Positions 141-23,922 of a stretch of 47,518 nucleotides of DNA are shown here, in pieces. The stretch comes from Actinomycetes bacterium (GTDB taxonomy: Bacteria; Actinomycetota; Acidimicrobiia; Acidimicrobiales; JAKAOS01). The notes beneath the pieces were generated by a model, which ran no database searches, was not told the DNA's origin, and worked only from the letters and a program-made list of their open reading frames with translations. Within the stretch, counting starts at the first letter, position 1. Every line of letters starts with the position of its first letter. The DNA lies in contig JAJYWE010000002.1 in NCBI GenBank assembly GCA_021791675.1, forward strand, positions 79,277 through 126,794, in the 5' to 3' direction. A program made the translations under genes and the position numbers.

Positions 141-1145
141 TCAGCCTTCCGGAGAACGGTCCGGTGGCGCTGGCGGGTCCGGTGACGCCGGGGGCCCCTC
201 CGGCGGTGGCTCGGACGACGGCAGGAGGAGGGCCAGCTGGCGGGACTGGGCGACCAGCCTCCCGGTCGAGTCGAAGAGCTCCCCGTCCTCCTCGAGCCAG
301 CCGTCGCGGAGAAGCCGGGTGGAGAAGCGACCGAGAACCCACCCCGGTGCCGGGTCCCCGCGCAGGTACACGGTGAGCGTCACCGTCGGGACCCACTCCG
401 CCGAGGTGATCTCGAGGACGGCTGGGGGGAACGCGTCGGCGAGGAGGGCGAGACCGATGCGGTCCGTTGCTCGGCCGTCTGCGAACCGGGCCCAGCCGGT
501 GAGAACGGGCACCCCGCTCGGCTGGCCCCGGAGCCAGCCGGTACCCGGCGCCACCCGCACCTCGACCCGCTCTCGCACAAGCGCCGGGCCGGGAACACCG
601 GGGAGCGAAGCCGGCACGGCCACGCAGTCCTTCGGACCCGGGAGGGACGGCGCGATCGGCTCGAGGACGCTGGGCGCTCGCTGTTTCTCGGGCTGGCCCG
701 GCTGTGCCGGCTCCCCTCCGTACCCGGACTGGCGCGATCGGCCCGGTGCTCCGGGCCGTCCAGACGCGCCGGGTTGTCCAGACGCGCCGGGTTGTCCAGG
801 CAGCCCAGGTCGACGAGGCGCGGCCGCAGCAGCGAACGTCGCGCTCACCCGGTAGCGCTCGACCCCACCCTGGCCAGCGCTGGCCTCGAGGAGCGCGATC
901 CGTCGACCCGTGCGCACAGGCCGGGTGTCGATCACCATCGGGCCGATCTCGGTGGGCCGGAGGTAGTGGATGGTCGTGGCGACGAGGTCGGGATGCGGGC
1001 TCTCGGCGGCAAGCGCGCGAAGGGTGAGGGCGGCGAGGTAACCCCCGTTCGGATGGTCGGCGATCGACCAGTCGGCGCGCACGTCGGCGAGCCAGCGATG
1101 CGCGAAGTCCGGGGCCGGACGAACCTCGAGGTCGTCTTCCGTCAC
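141..1145 (-). CDS. Acyl-CoA thioesterase-like double hot-dog protein with collagen-like insert
   Basis: A 334-residue protein that looks like a TesB/4HBT_3 type acyl-CoA thioesterase, which would hydrolyse acyl-CoA to free acid and CoA in the cytoplasm. The N-terminal half (about residues 1-95) has the hot-dog pattern with HPNGGYLAA and TTIHYLRP. The C-terminal half (about 190-315) has a second one with WVPTVTLTVYLRG. Between them lies about 45 residues of Gly-X-Y collagen-like sequence coded by an 18-bp repeat. The chosen start is the GTG at 1145, just before the conserved region, with GGGGGAG about 10 bases upstream. It lies 154 bp downstream of the KimA-like gene on the same strand. The family assignment is moderately sure; the substrate is unknown. 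Confidence 0.7.
   Translation of the reverse strand: MTEDDLEVRPAPDFAHRWLADVRADWSIADHPNGGYLAALTLRALAAESPHPDLVATTIHYLRPTEIGPMVIDTRPVRTGRRIALLEASAGQGGVERYRVSATFAAAAAPRRPGLPGQPGASGQPGASGRPGAPGRSRQSGYGGEPAQPGQPEKQRAPSVLEPIAPSLPGPKDCVAVPASLPGVPGPALVRERVEVRVAPGTGWLRGQPSGVPVLTGWARFADGRATDRIGLALLADAFPPAVLEITSAEWVPTVTLTVYLRGDPAPGWVLGRFSTRLLRDGWLEEDGELFDSTGRLVAQSRQLALLLPSSEPPPEGPPASPDPPAPPDRSPEG
758..793. repeat. 18-bp tandem repeat coding collagen-like triplets
   Basis: Two perfect copies of GTCCAGACGCGCCGGGTT stand head to tail, followed by a degenerate third (GTCCAGGCAGCCCAGGTC). On the minus strand they encode Gly-X-Y triplets of the GQPGAS kind inside the thioesterase-like gene, so expansion or contraction keeps frame. 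Confidence 0.85.
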
Positions 1146-1299
1146 GCGCGGCGCGCTCCCCCGCGCCCCGCCCCCCCGCCCCGCGGCCGTGCGCGTCCAG
1201 GCAACGTGCGCCTCTCCTGGCCCTTCGTCCCCCGGCGTGCGCTCGGGCTCGCCGAAGCGCTCGTCCGATCCAGCCCGGTCGGCTCCCAGCGAGCGCTGC

Positions 1300-3825
1300 T
1301 CACTCCGTCGGGTCGCTGCTCGGACGGGCGAGGAACTCGATGTAGGGGTCGCGCAGCGCGAGCGTGCCGTCGTACTCCCCGACCATCCCCTCGACCACGA
1401 CCTTGGCGGAGGGCTCGATCCCGTCGACCTGGCGGCGCCCGAACACGAGGGTGACGCCACCCGTGTCGTCCTCGAGCCGGGCGGTGAGGACCTGCATGCC
1501 GCCCTGCGGCTGGATCTCGACCGAGCGGATCTGGCCGGCGACCTTCGCCCGCTCCCGGTAGTGGAGGCCGGCGATGGGGGTCCGACCCGGGATCTGGGGC
1601 GGTGTCACCTCGCGGGCGGCACGGCCCTGGCCCGAGCGGCCCCGGCGGGCCGACTCGGCGGTGGTCGACGAGGGCTCCGCCCTGGCTGCCAGGGCAGAAG
1701 CGGGGAGCCTCCCGGCAACCATGCCCTCCGAGAGCTGGAAGGGCACGATGGTCGCGTTCACGTTGGGGATGTCCGAGAGGACGAGCGAGATCCGGTCCGC
1801 CGTCCGGTCGTGGAGGATGCGGCTCCAGAAGCCGCCGAAGTCCCGGCGCGGGAGGAGCACCGAGACCTCGGTCTCGCCGTCCAGGTAGCCCGAGAGCAGC
1901 TCGACGGTCGCTCGGCCGAGACGCCGGTCGGGACAGTCGAGGATCTCGAGGGGCAGGCCCGTCAGGCCGAGGGTGCGCCAGGCCTGCTCGAGCTCCCGTG
2001 CGCGCCGCGGGTCGATCCGGAAGTGCACCACGCGAAGCGTGTCCGGCAGGAGCGAACGCGCGTAGCGAATGGCCGACGCGGTGGCGAGGTCCAGCCGGTC
2101 CACGAGGAGGAGCACGACGTGGCGCGGAAGCACCGGGTCCTCACAGGCCCGTGCCACCCCACGCTCGAGGATCGCGGCCTCCCGGCGGTACCGCCGGTTG
2201 ATGCGAGTGAACCAGAACACGAGCAGGGGGAACGTGACGACCACCAGCCATGCCCCCTGGGTGAACTTCGTGACCACGAAGATCACGACGACGAGGCCCG
2301 ACAGCCCGGCTGCGAAGCCGTTCACCCACTGCTTGCGGGTCCAGCCGGCCTCCCGCACGCGCCGGTGGTAGCGGACCATCCCGGCGCCCGCCATCGTGAA
2401 GCCGGTGAAGACGCCGATCGCATAGAGCGCCACGAGGGAGTCCACGTTCGCGCCGCTCCCGACCAGGAGCGCGATGCCGACCACCGTGAGGACGATGATC
2501 CCGTTCGAGAACGCGAGCCGGTGCCCGCGTTTGGTCAGCCAGCGGGGCAGGAAGGAGTCCTGCGCCACGAAGCTCGTGAGGAAGGGAAACCCGTTGAAGC
2601 TCGTGTTGCCGCCGGTGTAGAGGACGAGGACGTTCGAGAGGATGACGAGGTAGTAGAAGAGGTGCCCGATCGGGCTGTGCCCGAAGACGTAGCTCGCCTC
2701 CTGCGCGACGACGGTGGGGCTGCCCGAGACATAGGGCACCGCGTGGGTGATGCGAGCGAGCAGCGCCACCCCCATCACGAGCGTGCCGAGCACGGTCGAC
2801 ATGATCACGAGGGTCCGCCGCGCGTTCACGCCCTCGGGCGGCCGGAATGCGCTCACGCCGTTCGAGATCGCCTCGAGGCCCGTGAGCGAGGAACCGCCGT
2901 TGGCGAAGGACTTGAGCATGATGAAGACCGACGCCCCCATCAGCAGGCCCACGTCAGGGGCGTGGCCGATCGGGACCGCCCCCACGACGCGGTAGGGGTG
3001 CGCGTGGAGCTGGCCGAGCGCAGCGCGGATCAGGCCGACCACGATCATGAGCCCCATCGCGAAGATGAAGAAGTACGTCGGGAAGGCGAAGATCTTGCTG
3101 GCCTCGCGGATCCCGCGGAGGTTCCCCCAGAGCATGAGCAGCACCACGACGACGCAGAGCTCGACGGCGTAGTGCTGGAGCGCCGGGATCGCCGAGGTCA
3201 CCGCGTCCGTGCCGGCCGCGACCTGCACGGCCACCGTGACCGTGTAGTCGATGATGAGGGCAGCTGCGGCAACCTGCGCGACCCGGGGCCCGAAGTTCTC
3301 CCGGGAGACCATGTAGGACCCGCCGACCTTCGTGTAGACCATCACCACCTCGCGGTACGAGAGGGTGACGAAGAACAACACGAGGATCACGGCGAGGGCG
3401 ACCGGGAGCAACAGGCTGAACGCCGCGACCCCGACCGCGGGAACCAGGATCCGCAACATCTCCTCGGGCCCGTATGCCGTCGAGGAGATGCAGTCGGGAG
3501 AGAGGACACCGAGCGCGGCCACCTTGCCGAGGCGCTGCTCTTGGAGGCTCTCCGACGTGAGCGGCGGGCCGAGGATCCGGTTCTTCAGGCGGTACCCCGC
3601 CGGCTCGGGCAGCTGGATCGGCGCAGTCGGCGGAAGGGGCACCGGCCCGGCGGCGGGGGCCACGACACCCGGCTCCGGGGGCTCCGAGGCAGGGGGCGGC
3701 GAGGCGGCGGCGGGGGGGCCGGCGGCGGGCGAGCCGGTAGGCGGGGTTGGCCCTTCGGCGGCGCGCTGCACGGCCCCCAGTAAAGCCGGTCTGGCCCAGC
3801 CGCACCCGGCGTCTGGGCCGAGCAT
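1300..3825 (-). CDS. KimA-like potassium/proton symporter fused to a C-terminal OB-fold domain
   Basis: An APC-superfamily permease of about 841 residues. Residues ~85-490 carry the KimA (YdaO) signature: LSPDCISSTAYGPEEML in helix 1, SYREVVMVYTKVGGSYMVSREN, and a second conserved Asp-Tyr in IIDYTVTVAVQVAAGTDAVT. KimA uses acidic residues at these places to bind K+. Residues ~500-690 form the cytosolic domain seen in KimA (RHVVLLLVDRLDLATASAIR). A disordered linker is followed by an OB-fold at ~753-841 (FGRRQVDGIEPSAKVVVEG), not part of KimA. The first ~90 residues are Pro/Ala-rich. ATG 3825 is the start with the clearest context, but starts nearer the conserved core are possible. It is divergent from ceoB by 60 bp, which matches mycobacteria, where a permease (Rv2690c) neighbours ceoB-ceoC and a separate OB-fold gene (Rv2694c). 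Function as K+ uptake is inferred from family. Confidence 0.85.
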   Translation of the reverse strand: MLGPDAGCGWARPALLGAVQRAAEGPTPPTGSPAAGPPAAASPPPASEPPEPGVVAPAAGPVPLPPTAPIQLPEPAGYRLKNRILGPPLTSESLQEQRLGKVAALGVLSPDCISSTAYGPEEMLRILVPAVGVAAFSLLLPVALAVILVLFFVTLSYREVVMVYTKVGGSYMVSRENFGPRVAQVAAAALIIDYTVTVAVQVAAGTDAVTSAIPALQHYAVELCVVVVLLMLWGNLRGIREASKIFAFPTYFFIFAMGLMIVVGLIRAALGQLHAHPYRVVGAVPIGHAPDVGLLMGASVFIMLKSFANGGSSLTGLEAISNGVSAFRPPEGVNARRTLVIMSTVLGTLVMGVALLARITHAVPYVSGSPTVVAQEASYVFGHSPIGHLFYYLVILSNVLVLYTGGNTSFNGFPFLTSFVAQDSFLPRWLTKRGHRLAFSNGIIVLTVVGIALLVGSGANVDSLVALYAIGVFTGFTMAGAGMVRYHRRVREAGWTRKQWVNGFAAGLSGLVVVIFVVTKFTQGAWLVVVTFPLLVFWFTRINRRYRREAAILERGVARACEDPVLPRHVVLLLVDRLDLATASAIRYARSLLPDTLRVVHFRIDPRRARELEQAWRTLGLTGLPLEILDCPDRRLGRATVELLSGYLDGETEVSVLLPRRDFGGFWSRILHDRTADRISLVLSDIPNVNATIVPFQLSEGMVAGRLPASALAARAEPSSTTAESARRGRSGQGRAAREVTPPQIPGRTPIAGLHYRERAKVAGQIRSVEIQPQGGMQVLTARLEDDTGGVTLVFGRRQVDGIEPSAKVVVEGMVGEYDGTLALRDPYIEFLARPSSDPTE

Positions 3826-3885
3826 CGCGGAGGGACCACCCGAGGCGCGCTTGTGCGGGACGGGGCCGGCGTGTTGCACTATGCC
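3826..3885. promoter_or_regulatory. Divergent promoter region between KimA-like gene and ceoB
   Basis: This 60-bp gap must carry promoters for both genes. On the minus strand CATAGT (3883-3878) is a possible -10 box. GCAC at 3876-3879 and GTGC at 3886-3889 form a small dyad over the ceoB start. The signals are weak. Confidence 0.35.
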
Positions 3886-4539
3886 GTGCACATCATCGTG
3901 GTCGGCTGCGGTCGGGTCGGCGCAGAGCTCGCGCGCACCCTCGTGGCCGCCTCCCACGACGTGACGGTGGTCGACAAGGACGAGCGAGCCTTCGAACGCC
4001 TCGCCGAGGGGTGGGGCGGGCGAACGGTACGGGGGTTCGGCTTCGACCGTGACACCCTCGAAGCGGCCGAGATCCGGAGCGCGTTCGCGCTCGCAGCCGT
4101 CACGAGCGGCGACAACTCCAACGTGCTCACCGCGAGGATTGCCCGGGAGACCTACGAGGTGCCTCAGGTGGTCGCCCGGATCTACGACCCGCGCCGCGCG
4201 GTGATCTACCAGCGGCTCGGGATCCCGACCGTGGCCACCGTGACCTGGACGGTCGGCCAGGCAATGCGCCGTCTCTTCCCCCACGAGGCCGTGACGGAGT
4301 GGACCGACGCGACCGGCGAGGTCGTCCTGGTCGAGCGCGCGCTCCCTGGGAGCTGGGTCGGACGCAGCCTCGACGCGCTCGAGCTGCTGGGCCGTACCCG
4401 GCTCGTCTCGGTCTCGCGGGCCGGACAGGCCAAGCTCGCACGCCCAGGTCTGATCGGGCAGGAGGGTGACATCCTCTACCTCGCGGTGCACAAGGAATCC
4501 CTCGACGACCTCGCGGCACAGCTCGGAGTGGGCCGATGA
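3886..4539 (+). CDS. ceoB: Potassium channel/transporter regulatory protein CeoB (TrkA, RCK domain)
   Basis: A 217-residue TrkA-type protein. The N-terminal Rossmann fold shows GCGRVGAELA (about residues 7-16) and an acidic residue after strand 2 (VVDKDE) for NAD binding. The later region IYDPRRAVIYQRLGIPTVATVTW is typical of CeoB, and the C-terminal RCK_C half spans about 135-215. GTG 3886 (MHIIVVG) is preferred over GTG 3853 because family members begin just there. The stop overlaps the start of ceoC by 4 bp (ATGA), so the two are translationally coupled. Such proteins gate K+ transporters in response to nucleotides. No TrkH/KtrB is present in the window, so the adjacent KimA-like permease is a candidate partner by context. 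Confidence 0.92.
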   Translation: MHIIVVGCGRVGAELARTLVAASHDVTVVDKDERAFERLAEGWGGRTVRGFGFDRDTLEAAEIRSAFALAAVTSGDNSNVLTARIARETYEVPQVVARIYDPRRAVIYQRLGIPTVATVTWTVGQAMRRLFPHEAVTEWTDATGEVVLVERALPGSWVGRSLDALELLGRTRLVSVSRAGQAKLARPGLIGQEGDILYLAVHKESLDDLAAQLGVGR

Positions 4540-5249
4540 GAGTTGTGGTCGCGGGCGGCGGCAACGTCGGGGTGTTCCTCGCGGAGGATCTCTCCTCCGC
4601 AGGACACGAGGTCCTCGTGATCGAACAGGACCGGGAGCTCGGCGCGCGGCTCTCGGCGCAGCTCTCGGGTGTCACGACCATCGTCGGGGACGCATGCGAG
4701 GTCCGGGTGCTCGACGCGGCGGGCGCCGCCAGCGCCGAGGTCGTCGTGGCGGCGACCGGTGACGACGAGGACAACCTGGTGATCTCGCTGCTGGCGAAGC
4801 AGGAGTTCGCCGTGCCACGGGTGGTCGCCCGAGTGAACCACCCGAAGAACCGGTGGATGTTCACGCAGTCCTGGGGTGTCGACGTGTCGGTCTCGACGCC
4901 CCACCTCCTCTCCGCGCTCGTCGAGGAGGCCGTCAGCGTCGGTGCCCTCGTCCGGCTCCTGCAGCTCGACGCGTCCGGAGCCCGCCTCGTCGAGGCAACC
5001 CTCGGGCCGACCTCACCCGGCGTCGGCCGGTGCGTCGCCGAGCTCGGCATGCCCCGCAACGCGTCGGTCGTCGCGATCGTGCGCCGTGGCCACGTCGTGG
5101 TGCCCCGGGGCGACTCCCGTCTCGACGCCGGCGACGAGGTGCTCGTCCTCGTCGCTCCCGACTCCGAGGATCGGGTGCGCTCCCTCCTGGTCGGCGAGCG
5201 ACCCGCCAGAGCGGGCTCGCCTACCGGGGCGCCAGAGCGAGAGCCCTGA
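4536..5249 (+). CDS. ceoC: Potassium channel/transporter regulatory protein CeoC (TrkA, RCK domain)
   Basis: A 237-residue second TrkA-family subunit, paralogous to ceoB. The Rossmann motif is GGGNVGVFLAEDL near residues 7-19. AATGDDEDNLVISLLAKQEF and VVARVNHPKNRWMF match the CeoC type, and SVEEAVSVGALVRLLQ-like sequence precedes the RCK_C region (about 135-225). It starts inside the ceoB stop codon (ATGA). The C-terminal tail after the RCK domain (about 15 residues) is not conserved-looking. It probably forms hetero-oligomers with CeoB to regulate potassium flux; this is inferred from gene pairing. Confidence 0.92.
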   Translation: MRVVVAGGGNVGVFLAEDLSSAGHEVLVIEQDRELGARLSAQLSGVTTIVGDACEVRVLDAAGAASAEVVVAATGDDEDNLVISLLAKQEFAVPRVVARVNHPKNRWMFTQSWGVDVSVSTPHLLSALVEEAVSVGALVRLLQLDASGARLVEATLGPTSPGVGRCVAELGMPRNASVVAIVRRGHVVVPRGDSRLDAGDEVLVLVAPDSEDRVRSLLVGERPARAGSPTGAPEREP

Positions 5250-5789: not shown

Positions 5790-6185
5790 TCACCGGCCGC
5801 CGGTGGCCCCGTCGAGGGGCTCCGCCTCGCCCGGGTCGGGCCGGCTCGTCGCAGCCTCGATCGCAGCCTCGACGGTGGCGCCCATCGGGAAGACCCGATC
5901 CAGGCGGGTGATCTCGAACACCTTGCGGATGCGCTCCTGGGCGCAGGCGACGGCGAGGTCGCCGTCGTGGCCCCTGGCTCGCTTCAGTGCGCCGACCAGG
6001 ACACCGAGGCCGGTCGAGTCGAGGAAGTCCACGCCTCGCAGGTCCACCACCAGCCTCGTCTGTCCCTCGGTGACCAGCTCGACCAACCGCTCCCGGAGCT
6101 GCGGCGCCGCGTAGGTGTCCACCTCGCCGGCAACCCGCACCACCGTCCAGCCCGCCTGCTCGGACACCTCGAGCCCTAGTTCCAC
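5790..6185 (-). CDS. STAS-domain anti-sigma factor antagonist (RsbV-like)
   Basis: A 131-residue protein. The STAS domain covers about residues 5-108, with the phosphoacceptor Ser in GVDFLDSTGLGVLVGALK (about residue 56). It would bind and inactivate the RsbW-like partner when unphosphorylated. GTG 6185 has AGGAGG about 10 bases upstream, which supports this start. The C-terminal 25 residues are a non-conserved Glu/Pro tail. It is the first gene of a two-gene operon with the RsbW-like kinase. Confidence 0.9.
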   Translation of the reverse strand: MELGLEVSEQAGWTVVRVAGEVDTYAAPQLRERLVELVTEGQTRLVVDLRGVDFLDSTGLGVLVGALKRARGHDGDLAVACAQERIRKVFEITRLDRVFPMGATVEAAIEAATSRPDPGEAEPLDGATGGR

Positions 6186-6208
6186 CGTCTCGGCCCTCCT
6201 CGACTCTC

Positions 6209-6214
6209 AACCTA
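6209..6214 (-). promoter_or_regulatory. Candidate -10 box (TAGGTT) for the STAS/RsbW operon
   Basis: TAGGTT on the minus strand lies 23 bases before the GTG at 6185. That leaves a short leader holding the AGGAGG ribosome binding site. No clear -35 element is seen. Confidence 0.4.
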
Positions 6215-6267
6215 CCCCCACGAGTCCCAGGGAAAACTCGCCCGGACCCCGCCGACCCCGACGCGCC

Positions 6268-6310
6268 GACCAGTTCGCCAGCCCGAGGGGGACCAGTTCG
6301 CCAGCCCGAG
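6268..6310. repeat. 20-bp direct repeat, two copies
   Basis: GACCAGTTCGCCAGCCCGAG occurs at 6268-6287 and again at 6291-6310, a 23-bp period, just upstream of the HAD gene promoter. It is non-coding on present evidence. It could be a regulator site for the HAD gene or a simple duplication. Confidence 0.8.
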
Positions 6311-6329
6311 CAGGACCAGCCACGCGGCC

Positions 6330-6335
6330 TATGCT
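6330..6335 (+). promoter_or_regulatory. -10 box (TATGCT) for the HAD gene, probably leaderless
   Basis: TATGCT ends 8 bases before the ATG at 6344, so transcription should begin at or next to the start codon. No ribosome binding site is present between them, as expected for a leaderless mRNA. Confidence 0.55.
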
Positions 6336-6343
6336 CAGCCGCG

Positions 6344-7171
6344 ATGGCCGCGGCGTTCTTCGACCTCGACAAGACGGTGATCGCCAAGGCCTCGACGCTC
6401 GCGTTCGGCCGCTCCCTCTACCGCGCCGGACTCATCTCCCGGCGGACCGTCCTGCGCGCGGCCTACGCCCAGGCGATCTACCTGCACCTCGGAGCCAGCG
6501 AGGAACGGCTGGCCAAGCTCCGCGAGTCCGCGCTCAAGCTCACCCGGGGATGGGAGCGGGACCGCGTGCGTGCCGTGGTGCAGGAGACCCTCCACGAGGT
6601 CGTTCGCCCGATCGTGTACGCGGAGGCTCTCCGCCTCATCACCGAGCACCGCGAAGCCGGGCGGCCGGTCGTGATCGTGTCCGCCTCCCCCGAGGAGATC
6701 GTCGAACCGCTCCGCCAGGAGTTCGGCGCCGACGACATCATCGCAACCCGACCGGTCGTGGACGCTGACGGCCGGTACACGGGCGAGATGGGCTTCTACG
6801 CCTACGGCACGTTCAAGGTCGAAGCGATGCAGGCATACGCCGCCGAACGGGGCATCGACCTCGCACAGTCCTACGCCTACAGCGACTCCTACACGGACGC
6901 GCCGATGCTCGAGGCCGTCGGTCACCCGGTCGCCGTGAACCCGGACCGGGTCCTGCTGCGCATGGCACGGGAGCACGACTGGCCGGTGCTCGAGTTCCAG
7001 AAGCCGGTGCGGGTACGGGAGCCGGGCTCGGGCCCGGACCACGGCCACGGGCCCGAGATCGCCGCCGCCGGGGCAGCAGCAGCCGGAGCGATGGTGGCAG
7101 TGCTCTCCTGGCAGCTCGGACGGCGGTCCCGCCGCCTGGTCAGCTCGCGCGGAGCTTCTGCGCCACGATGA
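6344..7171 (+). CDS. HAD-IB family phosphatase (SerB-like)
   Basis: A 275-residue haloacid dehalogenase superfamily hydrolase. Motif I is FFDLDKTVI (residues 5-13, nucleophile Asp7). Motif II is VVIVSASPEEIV. The third region is the AYSDSYTDAPMLEAVGHPVAVNPD block with the metal-binding acidic pair. HAD-IB members such as SerB and CicA dephosphorylate small metabolites; the substrate cannot be read from sequence. A hydrophobic Ala-rich stretch near the C-terminus (about residues 235-255) may be a membrane anchor. The last 32 bases overlap a convergent small gene (7140-7214). Confidence 0.85.
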   Translation: MAAAFFDLDKTVIAKASTLAFGRSLYRAGLISRRTVLRAAYAQAIYLHLGASEERLAKLRESALKLTRGWERDRVRAVVQETLHEVVRPIVYAEALRLITEHREAGRPVVIVSASPEEIVEPLRQEFGADDIIATRPVVDADGRYTGEMGFYAYGTFKVEAMQAYAAERGIDLAQSYAYSDSYTDAPMLEAVGHPVAVNPDRVLLRMAREHDWPVLEFQKPVRVREPGSGPDHGHGPEIAAAGAAAAGAMVAVLSWQLGRRSRRLVSSRGASAPR

Positions 7172-7214
7172 AGCCGAGCGAGACCAGGACCGCGATGACC
7201 AAGAGCTTCTTCAT
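7140..7214 (-). CDS. 24-residue membrane peptide, resembling the N-terminus of DLW-39 family proteins
   Basis: ATG 7214 opens a 24-codon frame starting MKKLLVIAVLVSLGFIVAQK and ending in a short basic tail. It forms one hydrophobic helix with a positive N-terminus. It resembles the first half of the small actinobacterial DLW-39 proteins but lacks their Asp-Leu-Trp end. TAGCGT lies exactly 6 bases before the ATG, the same leaderless arrangement seen for several sure genes here, which supports expression. It overlaps the 3' end of the HAD gene on the other strand. Function is unknown. Confidence 0.55.
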   Translation of the reverse strand: MKKLLVIAVLVSLGFIVAQKLRAS

Positions 7215-7220
7215 GGGGCC

Positions 7221-7226
7221 ACGCTA
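7221..7226 (-). promoter_or_regulatory. -10 box (TAGCGT) for the 24-residue peptide
   Basis: TAGCGT, then six bases (GGCCCC), then ATG on the minus strand. The spacing matches the leaderless promoters of nadE and ctaC in this window. Confidence 0.5.
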
Positions 7227-7254
7227 GCCGCGCCTCGTCGGTGGGTGGAGCAGC

Positions 7255-7260
7255 TACCGT
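7255..7260 (+). promoter_or_regulatory. Candidate -10 box (TACCGT) of selC
   Basis: TACCGT is followed by exactly seven bases and then G1 of the mature tRNA. Transcription from it would start at or within a base of tRNA position 1, leaving little or no 5' leader for RNase P. Confidence 0.45.
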
Positions 7261-7267
7261 CGTCGCC

Positions 7268-7363
7268 GGAGGTGTCCGGGCGCCTGGTGGGCCCCCCCGC
7301 CTTCAAAGCGGGTGGGACGGGTGAACCCCGTCCGGCGGGTTCGATTCCCGTCCACCTCCGCCA
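7268..7363 (+). tRNA. selC: tRNA-Sec (anticodon TCA)
   Basis: A 96-nt selenocysteine tRNA including an encoded 3' CCA. The acceptor stem GGAGGTG pairs with CACCTCC. The anticodon stem CCCGC/GCGGG closes the loop CTTCAAA with anticodon TCA. A long variable arm GGACGGG/CCCGTCC (7 bp) follows, then the T arm with loop TTCGATT. G is the discriminator. The eighth acceptor pair expected of tRNA-Sec would be T7275 with C7352 and is a mismatch. It implies UGA recoding by SelA/SelB elsewhere in the genome; none of those genes and no obvious selenoprotein is in this window. Confidence 0.96.
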
Positions 7364-7373
7364 ACGACCGGGA

Positions 7374-8318: not shown

Positions 8319-8459
8319 GACCCTTCTTCTGGCGACAACACTCGTACCGACGGATTGTCCCACTGCGACCGAGCGCCTCCGGGTGCTAGGTCGGATCCTC
8401 CCCCCCGATCCGGGAAACCACCTCCCAGACCTCTCGTGGTGGTGAGCGTAACCGGCACG

Positions 8460-9077: not shown

Positions 9078-9100
9078 GCCAGAGCTTCGCGCGCCGCCCC

Positions 9101-15120: not shown

Positions 15121-16739
15121 ACCGCCGAGGCCGGCCCGGCCGCGAAGGGTCGAACGGGCTGGAACCGGGCGCGTCGGTCGATCCGGCTCCCGGGACGACC
15201 ACCCGACCCGGGCGCGAGCTGTGGCGTCGTCGGGCGGCGGGCACTGCAGCCACGCTCGCGAGCCTCGGCATCAGCGCCGCGGTGCTCGCGCCGTTCCGGC
15301 CGAGCCTGAGCGTCGCCACGACCGGCCTCGTCCTCGTCGTCCCCGTCGTCGTCGGCGTCGCGATCGGTGGGTTCTTCGTCGGCGTCGCCGCGGTCGCGCT
15401 CGGCTTCGTGCTCTGGGACTACCTGTTCATCCCCCCGTACCGCACGCTCGCCGTCACCCAGGCGCAGGACTGGGTGGCGCTCGCGGTCTACGCCGTTGTC
15501 ATGCTGGTCGTCGCTCGTGTGGTCGCGAACCTCGAGGCGGCACGGGCGCTCGCACGGGCGCGAGAGCGTTCGACCCGCCAGCTCTTCGAGCTCTCCGAGG
15601 TCCTGCTGCGCGACCGGCCGGTGGAGGAGCTCCTCCGGGGCCTCGCCTCGAGCGTCCGTGCGGTCTTCGGGGTGGAGGCGAGTGTCGTGGGTGAGCGGGA
15701 GAGCTCGCTCGGTGGCCCCACCGCCACCTCGCCCGAGCGACTCGATGCGGGCGACTCCCCCGGTCACCCCGACGCGGCCGGCCGGCCAGAGCGCAGGTCG
15801 AGTCCGACCCGCTCCGAGCTCGCCAGTGGTCGAGCGGTCGCCGTACGGGGAGTCGACGAGCGGGGGAGGGCGCTCCGGACGGTCCCGCTGGCGGTCGCGG
15901 GCCGCCCGGTCGCGCTCTTGGTCGTGGAGGGCCGCGCCCTGGACCGTGCGGAGGAAGAGCTGCTCGGCGTCTTCGCGAACCACACCGCCCTCGCGCTCGA
16001 GCGAGCGGAGCTCCGGGGCCAAGCGATGCGAACCGAGCTCCTGGAAGAGGTCGACCGTTGGCGCCAGACCCTGGTCTCGACGGTCTCCCACGACCTGCGG
16101 ACCCCCCTTGCGTCCATCAAGGCCGCCGTGTCGGGTCTGCGCGACCCTGCTCTCGGTCTCGAGCCGGCGGATCGGGCCGAGCTGCTCGAGACCGTCGAGC
16201 TGCAAGCCGACCGCCTGAGCCGAATGGTCGCGAGCCTCCTCGACCTCTCCCGGCTCGAGTCCGGGGCCCTCCGGCTCGATCGCCAGCCGCTCGTCGTGGA
16301 CGAGCTCGTCACCGAGGCAGTGGCGAGCCTGGGGACCGCGCTGCGACCGGACCGGGTGCGCTGCGCCCTTGCGGAGGATCTGCCCGCCATCGAGGGGGAC
16401 CACACCCTGCTCTGCGAGGTGCTGGCGAACCTCCTCGAGAACGCCGCACGCCACGGCCCGGAGGAGACGCCGATCGAGGTCCGCGCGCGCCCGGGTGGCG
16501 TCGGGGTGGAGATCACGGTGACAGACCGAGGCCCCGGCGTCGCCGCCGAGGATCGTGAGGGGATCTTCCGGGTGTTCGACCGGCGCGCCGGGGGCGGGCG
16601 CGCGGGACTCGGGCTCGCCATCGTCAAGGCCTTCGTGGACGCGCACGGCGGGACGCTCGGCGTCAGCTCCGGACCGGACGGCGGCGCGGCGTTCACCTTC
16701 TCGGTGCCCGCTTCGGAGCTACCGGTCGAGGCCGTCTGA
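15117..16739 (+). CDS. kdpD: Membrane sensor histidine kinase, KdpD C-terminal half
   Basis: A 540-residue kinase matching the second half of KdpD. A DUF4118-type four-helix membrane domain covers residues ~40-135 (FVLWDYLFIPPYRTLAVTQA), a GAF-like domain ~165-300, HisKA follows with phosphoacceptor His325 in TVSHDLRTPLASIKAA, and the ATPase has NLLENAARHG, DRGPGVAAEDREGIFRVFD and RAGLGLAIVKAF. The N-terminal KdpD/USP sensor region is missing and is coded separately at 22717-23922. The start is GTG 15117, overlapping the leader stop. kdpE follows 26 bp later. It would phosphorylate KdpE in response to K+ limitation, presumably together with the split sensor. Confidence 0.9.
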   Translation: MNRRGRPGREGSNGLEPGASVDPAPGTTTRPGRELWRRRAAGTAATLASLGISAAVLAPFRPSLSVATTGLVLVVPVVVGVAIGGFFVGVAAVALGFVLWDYLFIPPYRTLAVTQAQDWVALAVYAVVMLVVARVVANLEAARALARARERSTRQLFELSEVLLRDRPVEELLRGLASSVRAVFGVEASVVGERESSLGGPTATSPERLDAGDSPGHPDAAGRPERRSSPTRSELASGRAVAVRGVDERGRALRTVPLAVAGRPVALLVVEGRALDRAEEELLGVFANHTALALERAELRGQAMRTELLEEVDRWRQTLVSTVSHDLRTPLASIKAAVSGLRDPALGLEPADRAELLETVELQADRLSRMVASLLDLSRLESGALRLDRQPLVVDELVTEAVASLGTALRPDRVRCALAEDLPAIEGDHTLLCEVLANLLENAARHGPEETPIEVRARPGGVGVEITVTDRGPGVAAEDREGIFRVFDRRAGGGRAGLGLAIVKAFVDAHGGTLGVSSGPDGGAAFTFSVPASELPVEAV

Positions 16740-16765: not shown

Positions 16766-17683
16766 TTGACGCGGGTCCTCGTCGTCGACGACGACGACGC
16801 GCTCCTGCGAGCGCTGCGCATCTCGCTCAGTGCGCGGGGCTACCGGGTCGAGACCGCCCGCTCGGGAGCAGAGGGCCTGCAGCGAGCGGCGGCGGCGCCG
16901 CCCGAGGTGGTCGTCCTCGACCTCGGCCTTCCCGACCTCGACGGCCTCGAGGTCTGCCGCCGCATCCGAGCGTGGAGCGACGTCCCGATCATCGTCCTCT
17001 CGGCCGCAGGGGCCGAAGCTCGCAAGGTCGCCGCCCTCGACGGGGGGGCGGACGACTACGTCACGAAGCCCTTCGGTCTGGCAGAGCTCGATGCGCGCCT
17101 TCGGGTCGCGATCCGCCACCGCCCGAGGGGGGCGGAGGGTGTCGAAACGGTCGTCCGGTCCGGGACCCTGGAAGTCGACCTCCCCGGCCGGGTCGCACGC
17201 ATCCAGGGACGCCCGGTCGACCTCACCGCCAGGGAGTTCGACCTGCTCGCCTACTTGGCGCGCCACGCCGGGAAGGTCTGCACGCACCGCATGATCCTCA
17301 CCGAGGTCTGGGGCCCGGCCTACGGGACCGAGGTTCACTACCTGCGGGTCTACGCCAATCGCCTCCGCAAGAAGCTCGGCGGCGATCCGTCGTTCTCGCT
17401 CCGCACCAACCCCGGCGTGGGCTATCAGCTCGTCGCCGAGTCCGATCCAGAGGCGCTCGAACCACCCGAGACGCCCGAACCGGCCGGAGCGTCCGGAGCG
17501 CGCGAACCGGCCGGAGCGCCCGAACCGCCCGAACCGGCCGAACGGCCCGAGGTGTCCCCCCGCCCCGGGGTCTCGACGGTGGCAGGGGTGTCGCCGGCGG
17601 TCGAGCTGCTGCCGTCACCGGCGCCGCCGCAGGCGGTCGAGCAACCGCCGGGCTCCGGTCCTGGCTCTCGCACCACCCGGTAG
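16766..17683 (+). CDS. kdpE: Response regulator KdpE with long low-complexity C-terminal tail
   Basis: A 305-residue OmpR-family regulator. The receiver domain has acidic residues 8-11, phosphoacceptor Asp52 in VVLDLGLPD and Lys101 in VTKPF. A winged-helix DNA-binding domain spans ~130-228 (LTAREFDLLAYLARHAG, EVHYLRVYANRLRKKLG, GVGYQLVAE). Normal KdpE ends near residue 230; here ~75 extra residues rich in Pro/Glu/Ala/Gly follow. TTG 16766 is the start, with GGAGG 8 bases upstream. The tail is antisense to the tail of the OB-fold gene at 17425-17985. The predicted target is the kdpFABC promoter. Confidence 0.93.
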   Translation: MTRVLVVDDDDALLRALRISLSARGYRVETARSGAEGLQRAAAAPPEVVVLDLGLPDLDGLEVCRRIRAWSDVPIIVLSAAGAEARKVAALDGGADDYVTKPFGLAELDARLRVAIRHRPRGAEGVETVVRSGTLEVDLPGRVARIQGRPVDLTAREFDLLAYLARHAGKVCTHRMILTEVWGPAYGTEVHYLRVYANRLRKKLGGDPSFSLRTNPGVGYQLVAESDPEALEPPETPEPAGASGAREPAGAPEPPEPAERPEVSPRPGVSTVAGVSPAVELLPSPAPPQAVEQPPGSGPGSRTTR

Positions 17684-17985
17684 GAAGGATTCCAGATCTC
17701 GGTCGAACCATCCGCGCCGTGTTGCGCGGTGCCCTCGAACACGAGGCGCGCACCGACCTCGAGCCCGTCGACGTGGCGCCTCCCGAGGAAGACCACCCAC
17801 GCTTCGCCCGTCCCGTCACCGACCAGCACCCGGGTCGCGACGTGCGGCCCGGTCTCGGTCACCTCGACTCGCAAGACCCCCGTCACGACCGCCACCCGGG
17901 TCCGTGGCCTCGCCGCGGCCAGCGACTCGACGAGCGGGAGCGCCCCTGGCCTGGAGGGGGAGCCGACGGCCGGGTCCGGGATCAC
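17425..17985 (-). CDS. OB-fold protein, last gene of the kdp operon
   Basis: A 186-residue protein. The OB-fold (about residues 25-100) contains VAVVTGVLRVEVTETGP, LVGDGTGEAWVVF and LGRRHVDGLEVGARLVFEG, and ends with WNPSYRVV. It is clearly related to the OB domain on the KimA-like transporter (FGRRQVDGIEPSAKVVVEG). About 85 Gly/Ser/Ala/Pro residues follow and overlap the kdpE tail on the other strand. GTG 17985 overlaps the kdpC stop (GTGA) and has GGGGAGG 9 bases upstream, so it belongs to the kdp operon. I know of no such subunit in standard Kdp systems. It may bind a nucleotide or RNA; this is inference. Confidence 0.8.
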   Translation of the reverse strand: MIPDPAVGSPSRPGALPLVESLAAARPRTRVAVVTGVLRVEVTETGPHVATRVLVGDGTGEAWVVFLGRRHVDGLEVGARLVFEGTAQHGADGSTEIWNPSYRVVREPGPEPGGCSTACGGAGDGSSSTAGDTPATVETPGRGDTSGRSAGSGGSGAPAGSRAPDAPAGSGVSGGSSASGSDSATS

Positions 17986-18530
17986 GATGCGGAACCTCCC
18001 CGGGCGAGGCGAGCAAGGGCCTCGTTGAGGGCGAGCACGTTGACGTAGGGAGCGCCGAGGAAGCCGAGCTGGCGGCCGTGGACCTCGGAGGTCACGAGGT
18101 TGCGGAGCCGACCCGGCGAGAGATGCCGGGCTCGGGCGACCATCGGGACCTGAGCGAGCGCGCTCGCGGGGCTGATGTCCGGGTCGAGACCACTCCCAGA
18201 GCTGGTCACGAGCTGTTCGGTGGGCTGCACCCCGAGCCGGTGCCACGCGGCGAGACGGGCGCCGACGTGGCGCTCGAGCACGGCCGAACGCGGGCCGAGG
18301 TTCGTCGGCCCGCTCGCCATCGGGTCGTAGGCGTCGGGCCGGCCGTGGAACCAATCCGGCCCGGACCAGGCTTGGCCGATCAGAGCGGAGCCGTTCACCC
18401 CGATCGAGCCGTTGGCCTGTGCCGGGAAGCCGACCTGGGCGATCCCCGTGATCGCGAGCGGGTAGGCCAGCCCGAGGAGCACGGCGAAGCTGATGGCGAC
18501 GATCACGGACCGACGCAGCTGGACGAGCAT
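17982..18530 (-). CDS. kdpC: Potassium-transporting ATPase subunit KdpC
   Basis: A 182-residue single-span subunit. The N-terminal helix is SVIVAISFAVLLGLAYPLAITG (residues ~8-29). The periplasmic part has the family patterns GSALIGQAW, YFHGRPDAYDP-like WFHGRPDAYDP, NLGPRS, VTSSGSGLDPDISPASA and GLQ-type LGFLGAPYVNVLALNEAL. ATG 18530 has AGGAGATCGAG just upstream. It lies 79 bp after kdpB, the only real gap in the operon, and that gap holds the kdpC ribosome binding site and GC-rich sequence. It stabilises the KdpFABC complex and boosts K+ affinity. Confidence 0.97.
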   Translation of the reverse strand: MLVQLRRSVIVAISFAVLLGLAYPLAITGIAQVGFPAQANGSIGVNGSALIGQAWSGPDWFHGRPDAYDPMASGPTNLGPRSAVLERHVGARLAAWHRLGVQPTEQLVTSSGSGLDPDISPASALAQVPMVARARHLSPGRLRNLVTSEVHGRQLGFLGAPYVNVLALNEALARLARGGSAS

Positions 18531-18609: not shown

Positions 18610-20742
18610 TCAGTAGAGGTGGGTGGCGGTGAGGATGAGGTCGATCACCTTGATTCCGATGAACGGCAGCAGCACCCCGCCGACGCCGTAGATCCAGACG
18701 TTGCGCCGCAGGATCGACTGGGCGGAGCTCGGACGGAAGCGGACCCCTCGGAGCGCGAGCGGGATGAGCGCCACGATGATGAGCGCGTTGAAGATGACGG
18801 CGGAGAGCACCGCCGAGGCCGGGCTGTGCAGCCGCATCACGTTGAGCGCCTCGAGCTGCGGATAGGTCGCCGCGAAGAGCGCCGGGATGATCGCGAAGTA
18901 CTTGGCGATGTCGTTCGCGATGGAGAACGTGGTGAGGGCGCCTCGTGTGATGAGGAGCTGCTTCCCGATCTCGACGACGTCGATGAGCTTCGTGGGGTTC
19001 GAGTCGAGGTCGACCATGTTGCCGGCCTCCTTCGCGGCCGAGGTGCCGGTGTTCATCGCCACCCCGACGTCGGCCTGCGCGAGCGCCGGTGCGTCGTTCG
19101 TGCCGTCGCCGGTCATGGCGACGAGCTTCCCGCCGCTCTGCTCCGCCTTGATCAGCTCCATCTTCGCCTCCGGCGTCGCCTCGGCGAGGTAGTCGTCGAC
19201 CCCCGCCTCCGCAGCGATCGCCGCCGCCGTGAGGGGGTTGTCGCCGGTGATCATGACGGTGCGGATGCCGATCGCGCGCAGCTGCTCGAAGCGCTCCTTG
19301 ATCCCCTGCTTGACGACGTCCTTCAGCTCGACCACGCCGAGCACCTCACCGGAGTCGGCGACGACGAGCGGGGTCGAACCGGCCTTGGCAATGCGCTCGA
19401 CGATGCCCTCGAGCTCGGCCGGGATCGACCCGCCCTGCTCCCTCACCCATCGCCGCACCGCCTCCGCAGCTCCCTTGCGGATCTGGTGGCCGTCGAGGTC
19501 GAGACCCGACATGCGCGTCTGGGCCGAGAACGGGACGAACGTGTGGGCGCCGCCGAGCTCTCGCTCGCGGATCGCGAAGCGCTCCTTGGCGAGCACCACG
19601 ATGGACCGCCCCTCCGGCGTCTCGTCGGCGAGCGAGGCGAGCTGGGCCGCCGCGGCGACCTCCTCCTCCGAATGCCCACCGACGGGCAGGAACGCGGAGG
19701 CCATGCGGTTCCCGAGCGTGATGGTGCCCGTCTTGTCGAGCAGCAGCGTCGAGACGTCTCCGGCAGCCTCGACCGCCCGGCCGCTCATCGCCAGGACGTT
19801 CCGCTGCACCAGGCGGTCCATCCCCGCGATCCCGATGGCGGAGAGGAGCGCCCCGATGGTCGTCGGGATGAGGCAGACCAGCAGCCCGACCAGGGTCACC
19901 ACCGACACCTGCCCGTGGGCGTAGGAACCGAAGGGCTGGAGGACCACGACCACCGGGATGAAGATGACGGTGAGCGCCGCGAGGAGGATGTTGAGCGCGA
20001 TCTCGTTCGGGGTCTTCTGACGGTTCGCCCCCTCGACGAGGGCGATCATCCGGTCCATGAAGGTCTTGCCAGGCTCCGCGGTGATGCGCACCACGATCCG
20101 GTCCGAGAGCACCTTCGTCCCGCCCGTGACCGCCGAGCGGTCCCCACCCGACTCCCGGATCACTGGCGCGGACTCCCCGGTGATCGCCGACTCGTCCACC
20201 GACGCGACGCCCTCCACGATCTCGCCGTCCGAGGGGATCACGTCGCCGGCCTCGCAGACGACCAGGTCCCCCTTGGCGAGCGCCGCTGCGGGCACGACCT
20301 CCTCGCCGCCGGCGGCGCCGAGCCGGCGAGCGGCGGTCTCGGTCCGCATCCGCCGGAGCGTGTCCGCCTGGGCCTTGCCCCGGCCCTCGGCCATCGCTTC
20401 GGCGAAGTTGGCGAACACCACGGTGAGGAAGAGCCAGATCGTGATCCCCCAGGTGAAGATGGAGGGGTGGGCGATGGCCTCCACGAGGGTGACCACGCTC
20501 CCGACCAGGACCACGAACATCACCGGGTTGCGCACCTGGACCCGGGGGTCCAGCTTCGCGAACGAGCCGGCGATCGCGCTCCGGAGGATCTCCGGATCGA
20601 ACAGGCTGCGGCTCTGGGCAACCCCGCGGGCGCCGCGGCCCGCGGCGTGCTCCCCGGCCAGCGGGTTCTCTCCGGCGGCGGAACCGGCACCGGGACCGGG
20701 GCCTGTGGTTGCTGCCGACGTCTCGTCGACCTGCTCGCTCAT
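18610..20742 (-). CDS. kdpB: Potassium-transporting ATPase ATP-binding subunit KdpB
   Basis: A 710-residue P-type ATPase that energises K+ uptake. The phosphorylation motif [11 protein letters not shown] has Asp at about residue 336. TGES ([10 protein letters not shown]) in the actuator domain, [27 protein letters not shown] and [25 protein letters not shown] are all intact. The N-terminal ~45 residues are a Gly/Ala-rich tail not typical of KdpB. ATG 20742 overlaps the kdpA stop (ATGA). Confidence 0.98.
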
Positions 20743-22433
20743 CCGAACAACCTCCCGTGCGAGAGCTGCTCCACGATCGGGCCCAGGGAGAGGGCGGGGA
20801 AGAAGGTGAGCCCGCCCACGATCACGATGACCCCGATGACGAGCCCGACGAAGAGCGGTGTGTCCGTGCGGAACGTCCCGAGCGAAGCCGGCACGGCGCT
20901 CTTGGCCGCGAGCGTCCCGGCGAGCGCGAGGACGGGCACGATGACCGCGAAGCGGCCGACCAACATGTCGAGACCGCCCGTCACGTTGTAGAAGGCGGTA
21001 TTGCTGGCGAGCCCGCCGAAGGCCGAGCCGTTGTTGTTCCCCTGGGAGAGGAACGCATAGAAGATCTCGCCGAAACCCTGCGGGCCCTTGTTGAGGGTCG
21101 GCGCGGTCCCCGCGTGGATCGACACGGCGATGCCGGTGAGGACGAGGACGGCGAGGGGCATCGCGAGCACCGCGAGCGCTGCGAGCTTCACCTCCCGGGC
21201 CTGGATCTTCTTCCCCAGGTACTCCGGTGTCCGCCCGACCATGAGGCCCCCGATGAACACCGCGAGGATCGCCGAGGGGAGGATCGTGTAGAGGCCGCTC
21301 CCGACCCCGCCCGGCGTCACGTCGCCCTGGGCCATCCCGGCCATGAGCGCGAGACCCCCGAGCGGGTTCCAGGAGTCGTAGGCGGAGTCCGCCGAGCCGG
21401 TCGAGGTCTGGGTGGAGGCGATCCCGTAGAGCACCGAGGAGTCCACGCCGAAGCGGGTCTCGATCCCTTCGGTGTTGCCCTGTGGCTGGGCCGGGAGGCC
21501 CGCCGCGGCGACGGCCGGGTTCGGCTCCTTCTGCCCGACTACCCCGACGGCCAACCAGGCCCCGAAGAGGATGGTCATCACCGCGAGCACGGCGACGCCC
21601 TGGCGGACGCTCCCGACCATCTTGCCGAAGGTGTACGTGAGCGCGACCGGGATGCAGAGGATCAGCACGATGGAGAGGAAGTTGGTGAGCCCCGTCGGGT
21701 TCTCGAAGGGGTGCGCCCCGTTCGCACCGAAGAAGCCGCCGCCGTTCGTGCCGAGCTGCTTGATCACCTCCTGGGAGGCGACCGGACCGCGGGCGATCAC
21801 CTGGGTCACGCCGTTCAGCGCGTCGTGGACGTGGGCGGGGCCGGCAAGCGTCTGGACCGCCCCCTGGGAGACGAAGAGCACTGCGAACACCACCGAGATC
21901 GGAAGCAGGACGTAGAGGACGCTTCGCACCAGGTCGACCCAGAAGTTCCCGATCGTCCGCGCACTGCGACGGGCGAGGCCCCGGATGAGCGCGATCGCCA
22001 CCACCATCCCGACCGCGGGCGAGACGAAGTTCTGGACGGCGAGCGCCACCATCTGGGAGAAGTAGGACATCGTCGTCTCGCCCGCGTAGTTCTGCCAGTT
22101 CGTGTTCGTGACGAAGGAGACGGCGGTGTTCCACGCGAGCGCCGGGGTCACGGCCCCGAGGTGCTGCGGGTCCAGCGGCAGGAAGCGCTGGAGCCGGAGC
22201 AGCGCATAGGTGAGCAGGATCGAGACCCCGGAGAAGACCAGGAGCGAGAGGCTGTAGCGCTGCCAGCTCTGCTCCGCCTCGGGGTCGACCCCGGCGAGCC
22301 GGTAGATCGGTCGCTCGAGGAAGGCGAGCCAGCGAACCCGGCCCTCGTAGACCGCAACGAGGTAGGCCCCGAGATAGCGCCAGGAGAGAGCCAGGACGAC
22401 GACCAGGGCGACAAGGGTGAGCGCGAAGGCCAT
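20739..22433 (-). CDS. kdpA: Potassium-transporting ATPase potassium-binding subunit KdpA
   Basis: A 564-residue channel-like subunit with about ten membrane helices and four selectivity-filter repeats, for example [36 protein letters not shown] and [22 protein letters not shown] 22433 overlaps the kdpF stop (TGATG) and has GGAG about 8 bases upstream; an ATG at 22442 is also in frame. It selects and passes K+ within KdpFABC. Confidence 0.98.
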
Positions 22434-22716: not shown

Positions 22717-23922
22717 GTGACGAGCCACGCCGAGGGTCCATCAGGCGAGGCCGGGCGAGACCCGGAGCACGTCGCGGGGGGCGAAGAGGACGCCACTGCC
22801 GTCGCACCAGCTGGCAGGTTTCGCCTGTACCTCGGGGCGAGTGCCGGGGTCGGGAAGACCTGCGCCATGCTCGACGAGGGCTGGCGGCGCAAGGAGCGTG
22901 GCACCGACGTCGTCGTGGGCTTCGTCGAGACCCACGGGCGGCCGCACACGGCTGCACTCCTCCGCAACTTGGAGGTCGTCCCACGAGTCCGCGTCGAGCA
23001 CCGGGGGGCGACCTTCGAGGAGATGGACCTCGCCGCCGTGCTGGCCCGGCGCCCCCAGGTGGCGCTGGTGGACGAGCTGGCGCACACGAACGTCCCGGGA
23101 TCGGGCCCCCACGAGAAACGCTACGAGGACGTGCTCGCCCTACTCGAGTCCGGGATCTCGGTGATCTCGACCGTGAACATCCAGCACCTCGAGAGCCTTG
23201 CCGACGCCGTGGAGCGGATGACCGGCGCGCAGGTACGAGAGCGCGTGCCCGACTGGGTCGTACACCGGGCGAACCAGATCGAGCTGGTGGACTCCTCCCC
23301 CGAGCAGCTCCGACGCCGAATGCTCCACGGGAACATCTACCCGCAGGACAAGATCCCCCAGGCCCTCGCCCACTTCTTCCGGACCGAGAACCTCGTCGCG
23401 CTACGCGAGCTGGCGCTGCGCTTCCTCGCGGACGAGACCGAGGAAGAGCTGCTCGACTACCTCCGCCGGCACCACGTCCGCCAGGTGTGGGAGACCGCGG
23501 AGCGGATCATGGTGGGGGTCACGGCCGCGGCCGGCACGGAGGCGGTGGTGCGCCGGGCGGCCCGGATGGCCGCGCGTTCGAAGGCCGAGCTCCACGTCGT
23601 CCACGTCGGCACGGGCGATGCTGGCTCGCCGGGCGCCGCCACCCAGCTCGAGCGCGTCCGCCAGCTCGCGGCGGAGGTCGGGGCAACCTTCCACGAGCTG
23701 GCAGCCGAGGACCCGGTCCAGGCACTGATCAGCTTCGCCCGCGACCACCAGATCACCCAGATCGTGCTCGGCGCGAGCCGGCGGAGCCGCTGGCGGGAGC
23801 TCACGAGCGGCTCGGTGATTCGCCACATCCTCCGGGCTGCGGCCGAGACGGGGATCGACGTCCACGTCATCGCCCGCTCGACGCTCCCGCTGGTCCCACC
23901 TGGAGCCGACGAGCGGCCCTGA
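22717..23922 (+). CDS. kdpD: KdpD N-terminal sensor (KdpD domain plus universal-stress domain), split from its kinase
   Basis: A 401-residue cytoplasmic protein equal to the first half of KdpD. The KdpD domain (residues ~35-245) has Walker A GASAGVGKTCAML, then VVVGFVETHGR, Walker B-like ALVDELAHTNVPGS and STVNIQHLESL. A UspA-like domain (~265-390) follows, with IVLGASRRSRW. The DUF4118 membrane, HisKA and ATPase parts are absent; they are coded at 15117-16739. The gene ends cleanly and is divergent from the kdp operon. In other bacteria this part senses ATP, K+ or c-di-AMP and controls the kinase. Here it must act in trans. Confidence 0.93.
   Translation: MTSHAEGPSGEAGRDPEHVAGGEEDATAVAPAGRFRLYLGASAGVGKTCAMLDEGWRRKERGTDVVVGFVETHGRPHTAALLRNLEVVPRVRVEHRGATFEEMDLAAVLARRPQVALVDELAHTNVPGSGPHEKRYEDVLALLESGISVISTVNIQHLESLADAVERMTGAQVRERVPDWVVHRANQIELVDSSPEQLRRRMLHGNIYPQDKIPQALAHFFRTENLVALRELALRFLADETEEELLDYLRRHHVRQVWETAERIMVGVTAAAGTEAVVRRAARMAARSKAELHVVHVGTGDAGSPGAATQLERVRQLAAEVGATFHELAAEDPVQALISFARDHQITQIVLGASRRSRWRELTSGSVIRHILRAAAETGIDVHVIARSTLPLVPPGADERP

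Follow-up and report, generated by a model that had tools for sequence, protein, structure and literature searches.

An OB-fold domain family, which we name K-OB, is functionally tied to K+ import, as seen in gene fusion, in gene neighbourhood and in co-occurrence across genomes. One member lies in the stretch of 47,518 nucleotides analysed here (the window), where a gene on the minus strand encodes what is, judged by its sequence, a KimA-type K+/H+ symporter followed by a disordered linker and then by an OB fold; that the protein transports K+ is inferred. The reading we prefer, to which a probability of about one half is given, is that K-OB is a cytosolic accessory part of actinobacterial K+ uptake and the contact through which CeoB/CeoC act on a KimA-like permease. 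None of KimA, OB folds, CeoBC and Kdp is new, but a search of the literature, mostly outside subscription journals, turned up neither the fusion nor the Kdp-associated OB gene nor the co-occurrence of K-OB with CeoC.

The KimA-OB fusion gene

The coordinates of the fusion gene in the first-pass annotation were correct: translation of 1300..3825 (minus strand) gives a protein of 841 aa, with no internal stop among its 841 codons. The N-terminal ~75 residues are Pro/Ala-rich and of low complexity, which means that translation may in fact begin further in. Residues 79-681 (1783..3591, minus strand), comprising a 12-TM LeuT-fold part and a PPAT-like cytosolic domain, were matched by phmmer at E 1e-102 to nearly the whole length of Bacillus subtilis KimA (6s3k, residues 4-588). 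The residues of the K+ and H+ sites, the roles of which have been described in B. subtilis (PMC6994465), are all identical, with D36, Y43, D117, T121, T230, E233 and Y377 corresponding to D111, Y118, D193, T197, T315, E318 and Y468 in the window protein. B. subtilis KimA is controlled by c-di-AMP (PMC10284832), and Y118, N237 and R337, which matter for this control (PMC6994465, PMC10284832), are identical in the alignment. Within the c-di-AMP pocket R337, H579 and L461 are kept, S582 is replaced by T, and N580, Q581, P479, V457 and V506 are changed.

Unlike the usual KimA architecture, the chain runs on in frame beyond the cytosolic domain; an end at that point is an architectural norm and not a defining feature of KimA, and the extension makes the gene a variant. 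About 30-45 disordered residues separate the cytosolic domain from the OB fold. In the window protein this linker covers residues ~716-745 (1591..1680, minus strand), with AlphaFold2 pLDDT below 50 at residues 656-679 of the model, which are 716-739 of KimA-OB. The K-OB domain follows at residues 746-835 (1321..1590, minus strand), on the evidence of PF01336, the AlphaFold2 models and the family alignment A1. The PF01336 match (residues 761-830, E 8e-6) scores 26.1 bits in the whole chain and 27.8 bits with the tail alone, against a curated cut-off of 27. The model of the tail has a mean pLDDT of 88.9 and strands arranged as in an OB barrel, and prediction of nearly the full chain (residues 61-841, pLDDT 84.6), which had been suggested as a check, returned a confident OB fold after a disordered linker. 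The first-pass claim of a KimA-type transporter fused in frame to an OB domain is thus borne out by the uninterrupted frame, the KimA match and the modelled OB fold of the tail, and the frameshift or stop between permease and OB that would have refuted it is absent from the window and from the other fusions.

Comparison of the window with L033, its nearest relative, puts dN/dS (NG86) at ~0.22 across the TM part together with the cytosolic domain, at ~0.34 in the OB and at ~0.82 in the linker. Purifying selection acts on the OB and more strongly on the transporter; the linker is nearly neutral. Elsewhere in the window, 144-1157 (minus strand) encodes a protein resembling acyl-CoA thioesterases, the two hot-dog domains of which are separated by a short collagen-like repeat.

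K-OB as a distinct OB family

The K-OB profile was built from 30 OB sequences (alignment A1), in which an R, a D, a second R, a G and a P are invariant. The family signature is F-x-G-R-R-x-[IV]-x-G-[IL], with the longer form G-R-R-x-[IV]-x-G-[IL]-x-x-G, also seen as GRRxIPGIxTG; the window motif GRRQVDGIEPS fits, with S for G at the last position. Foldseek grouped the model of the tail with the OB folds of AspRS, LysRS, RPA, DnaE and RecG. A single-sequence search of the OB against the PDB gave no credible match, and the profile reached RecG at no better than E 0.012. In the phylum sample, family members scored E 9e-15 or better and RecG E 2e-13 or worse. K-OB is a distinct, RecG-like OB family. 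That it might be a piece of RecG was ruled out, the RecG matches being separable by E-value and by neighbourhood.

Distribution and origin of the fusion

The OB was present in 25 of 41 genomes in a first survey, and K-OB in 71 of 148 genomes of the order, about 45 of the 71 having it in frames of at least 740 aa. Fifty-four stop-free KimA-OB fusions were found in KimA segments, taken from the window and from independent assemblies, with one cut by a contig edge; the genomes bearing fusions include Streptomyces sp. ICBB 8177 and Streptantibioticus. A frameshift or assembly artefact is ruled out by the stop-free frame, by so many uninterrupted fusions in independent assemblies and by the purifying selection on the OB, and the clustering of the fused state on the permease tree likewise leaves next to no room for a fusion by chance.

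In a FastTree phylogeny of 109 permeases the fused copies cluster and the fused state needs three changes. The simplest history is one gain and two losses, and a single origin with later fission and loss appears probable from this tree. In the fission clade (L055, L057 and L060) the OB reads as an overlapping separate gene, three Streptomyces loci (L039-L041) have a close KimA with neither the OB nor ceoBC nearby, and mycobacterial-type permeases are all unfused and fall in other KimA subclades. Both K-OB and CeoC are missing from the two genomes sampled in the family to which the window belongs, and plasmid-borne relatives, among the matches listed, matched in KimA only, the OB not being covered. 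At 5985-10748 of locus L048, two KimA-OB fusions stand in tandem beside ceoB-ceoC.

K+-uptake genes around K-OB

A K+-uptake gene, counted as CeoB/C, a KimA-like permease or KdpABC, was found by script within 5 kb of K-OB in 44/44 loci (40/40 from the phylum sample and 4/4 further loci of the order), and ceoB/C within the same distance in 38 of the 44; none of 11 RecG control loci, fetched in the same way, had a K+-uptake gene within 5 kb. The profile seeds were relatives of a K+-linked gene; the test is not circular, because the profile used the OB sequence only and ignored neighbours. The search with the C-terminal OB that the first-pass annotation had proposed, with fusions and neighbours tabulated, thus gave 54 fusions and a K+-uptake gene at all 44 loci. 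Of the physical link between OB and transporter that it had inferred, a functional link stands, on fusion, neighbourhood and co-occurrence, but a physical one has not been shown.

Several arrangements recur. The permease may be divergent from ceoB-ceoC, which is followed by the OB gene; a KimA-OB fusion may be divergent from ceoB-ceoC; KimA may have an adjacent or overlapping OB gene; KimA-OB may lie beside kdp genes; or kdpABC may be followed by the OB gene. The second and the last are both found in the window. Divergent from KimA-OB lies a ceoB-like TrkA/RCK gene (3853..4539, plus strand; TrkA_N E 5.5e-26), the true start of which is probably near 3886, overlapped by a ceoC-like TrkA/RCK gene (4536..5249, plus strand; TrkA_N E 2.7e-27, TrkA_C 9.9e-15). 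A c-di-AMP riboswitch is located upstream in some Firmicutes; no Rfam match to one was obtained near KimA-OB. The only Rfam match in the window is a selenocysteine tRNA at 7268-7359 (plus strand; RF01852, 68 bits), and the genome may therefore make selenoproteins.

Searching the genome with its own OB revealed a second, stand-alone K-OB gene, unnoticed in the first-pass annotation, at 17425..17985 (minus strand; 186 aa with a low-complexity tail; K-OB profile E 4e-26). Its GTG start overlaps the stop of kdpC as GTGA. On the same strand lie kdpC (17982..18530; PF02669 E 3e-54), kdpB (18610..20742; E1-E2 ATPase and hydrolase domains) and kdpA (20739..22433; PF03814 E 1.5e-224). Domain searches placed a KdpD kinase part (DUF4118-GAF-HisKA-HATPase) at 15282..16739, the KdpE response regulator at 16766..17683 and a separate KdpD sensor part (KdpD and Usp domains) at 22867..23922, all on the plus strand. 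KdpD is thus split: kdpABC-OB lies between the sensor part and the kinase part, which are ~6 kb from each other. At its 3' end the KdpE gene runs into the K-OB gene on the other strand, where the low-complexity tail is encoded. The OB directly follows kdpC in the window and in L068, L136-L140, L143 and L144; in L136 the OB gene overlaps kdpC by GTGA on one side and is separated from kdpD by one base on the other. In L107, L141 and L142 it lies just upstream of kdpA (divergently in L142). As K-OB is tied to CeoB/CeoC and Kdp too, it is not specific to KimA.

Co-occurrence with CeoC and TrkH

Across the 148 genomes of the order, with CeoC counted as present at E 1e-50 or better, 68 had both K-OB and CeoC, three K-OB only, two CeoC only and 75 neither (Fisher p 9e-36, kinship of genomes ignored). 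Such p-values overstate independence, as the genomes are related. CeoC accompanies K-OB in every sampled genome tabulated for ten families of mixed state (f1, f7, f9, f14, f16, f30, f31, f32, f40 and f86, the family codes being read by eye), and shared ancestry alone cannot explain a pairing that holds within families. The genomes with K-OB but without CeoC are G035 and G226, which belong to the same genus and have the fused KimA-OB, and G216, which has the Kdp form; no CeoC-like gene was found in them beyond E about 1e-6. The two with CeoC and no detected K-OB (G233 and G267) are fragmented assemblies. TrkH was found in 8 of 71 K-OB genomes, compared with 56 of the 77 others, and was not found in G000; the nominal p of 9e-15 should not be taken at face value because the contrast runs largely between families.

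The mycobacterial counterpart Rv2694c

In the f66 genomes (L115-L118) the gene order is permease, ceoB-ceoC, an MFS gene (in L117), DUF3159, K-OB, in some cases a hydrolase, DUF3710 and dUTPase; apart from the MFS gene, we take this to be the Rv2690c-Rv2697c order of Mycobacterium tuberculosis. The K-OB gene of L117, which encodes 123 aa, stood in for Rv2694c, and the DUF3159 match at this locus is 2.8e-70. At 4645-7949 of L117, K-OB lies in a row with DUF3159, DUF3710 and dUTPase, which makes DUF3159 a further candidate partner. A phosphopeptide of Rv2694c, RIPGIDTGR with phospho-Thr, has been reported (PMC4322841) and fits the K-OB signature (compare RRIPGIDSG and RHIPGIETG). Short of a full-length alignment, the relation of the OB to Rv2694c-like proteins proposed in the first-pass annotation is supported by this peptide and by the mycobacterial-type order of the f66 loci. 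The further proposal of a separate OB gene near the permease and ceoB-ceoC holds in these stand-in loci, but the mycobacterial permease belongs to a different KimA subclade, in which no fused OB was found. Phosphorylation of the K-OB loop may be inferred as a further possible input, since the phospho-Thr lies in the loop after the conserved GRR. Literature on Rv2694c was limited to expression, the phosphoproteome and an implausible automated 'ArtP' label, with no function found, and literature on OB folds with K+ transporters, or on DUF3159, held nothing relevant.

Discussion

We propose that the KimA part would import K+ with protons (its K+ transport being inferred) and that the OB would regulate the transporter in cis, held on a flexible linker below the KimA dimer; elsewhere a small K-OB protein would act in trans alongside permease-CeoB-CeoC or KdpABC. 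In genomes that mostly lack the TrkH channel, CeoB/CeoC, which are soluble RCK proteins, would act on the KimA-like permease via K-OB, and KimA(-OB) would supply the membrane component of 'Trk' (CeoBC) in actinobacteria. We consider regulation via CeoB/CeoC the most likely for three reasons: CeoC alone among the partners is nearly always there, K-OB genomes are mostly without TrkH, and the fused OB lies in the cytosol, as do the RCK proteins encoded divergently from it. Direct contact between K-OB and CeoBC, for which there are neither binding data nor a model of the complex, is inferred, as are the direction of control and any small ligand. Contact with CeoBC cannot be the only function of K-OB, since three genomes keep K-OB without CeoC, two of them with the fusion; KdpABC-OB would need a contact other than KimA, and the Streptomyces loci with a close KimA but neither OB nor nearby ceoBC also speak against this mechanism. 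The wider proposal, that KimA-like permease, K-OB and CeoB/CeoC form one K+ machine replacing TrkH-TrkA in Actinomycetota, with K-OB a portable part that also serves KdpFABC, is tentative and falls somewhat short of an even chance.

K-OB could instead be the receptor for a nucleotide or for a cyclic dinucleotide such as c-di-AMP and relay that signal to the transporter, in the way that RCK_C, USP and the cytosolic domain of KimA do in Firmicutes. We regard this as unlikely, though it should not be dismissed: the genome encodes a DAC domain protein, K-OB and DAC are positively associated (p 2e-4, with independence again overstated among related genomes), conserved K-OB arginines could hold phosphates, and the docking residues of KimA for c-di-AMP are largely changed (P479, N580, Q581 and V457), leaving room for another sensor. 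To our knowledge there is no OB-fold c-di-AMP receptor; another nucleotide is not excluded by this. The control of KimA by c-di-AMP (PMC10284832) favours such a ligand, as does its binding to KdpD (PMC8214093). However, 12 of the 71 K-OB genomes have no detected DAC domain, and in two families, f21 (G022, G216, G248, G276) and f23 (G024, G217, G249, G277), all eight sampled genomes are without one, seven of them having long KimA-OB frames. As these families keep K-OB without a detected diadenylate cyclase domain, c-di-AMP is not a universal ligand of K-OB, and the idea that it binds the domain, which the first-pass annotation had put forward for testing, is weakened; K+ control in f21 and f23 may do without c-di-AMP.

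An ionic-strength sensor, mildly basic and binding RNA or anionic lipid at low salt to release it as K+ rises, would suit one module serving three unrelated K+ importers, K+ itself being all that KimA, CeoBC and Kdp have in common. Nucleic-acid-binding OB domains share this fold and fused copies carry a mean net charge of +3, yet individual values range from -2 to +7, there is no known binding to nucleic acid or lipid, and the near-perfect co-occurrence with CeoC would be left unexplained, which makes this reading doubtful. We give little credence to a module for assembly or stability only, for example an aid to dimerisation, with no regulatory role. It would be in keeping with the flexible, fast-evolving linker and with the Streptomyces transporters that lack the OB, but KimA assembly by itself hardly accounts for the retention of K-OB as a translationally coupled gene of its own next to unrelated transporters.

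The literature on constitutive K+ uptake in M. tuberculosis describes two soluble TrkA-type proteins, CeoB and CeoC, and named no membrane partner in what was searched. The fusion, the neighbourhoods, the K-OB/CeoC co-occurrence and the scarcity of TrkH single out the KimA-like permease as a candidate membrane part and K-OB as a candidate coupling part of this system; were the proposed single K+ machine real, Rv2690c and Rv2694c would be the missing membrane and coupling parts of a mycobacterial 'Trk' described as CeoB/CeoC alone. An orphan OB family of no known function thereby gains a function class, one OB module is common to a symporter, an RCK system and a P-type ATPase, and a shared, unstudied control part of K+ uptake is pointed to, relatives of the tuberculosis bacterium included.

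Set against known systems, the window protein aligns throughout its TM part and cytosolic domain with B. subtilis KimA (YdaO; a K+/H+ symporter of the KUP superfamily; 6s3k, 8b70), but adds the linker and OB and has not kept most of the cytosolic-domain c-di-AMP pocket. The wedge OB fold of RecG (PF01336, tRNA_anti-codon) is the closest sequence family and shares the fold of K-OB, which differs in having no helicase domains in the chain, a signature of its own and a neighbourhood of K+ transport instead of DNA repair. Compared with the kdpFABC-kdpDE operon, kdpABC of the window is standard, with kdpE and a split kdpD, whilst a K-OB gene is added directly after kdpC. In the Rv2690c-ceoB-ceoC-Rv2693c-Rv2694c region of M. 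tuberculosis, as in the window, a KimA-like permease is divergent from ceoBC and a K-OB with the same motif is present; there, however, the OB is a separate gene and the permease belongs to another KimA subclade.
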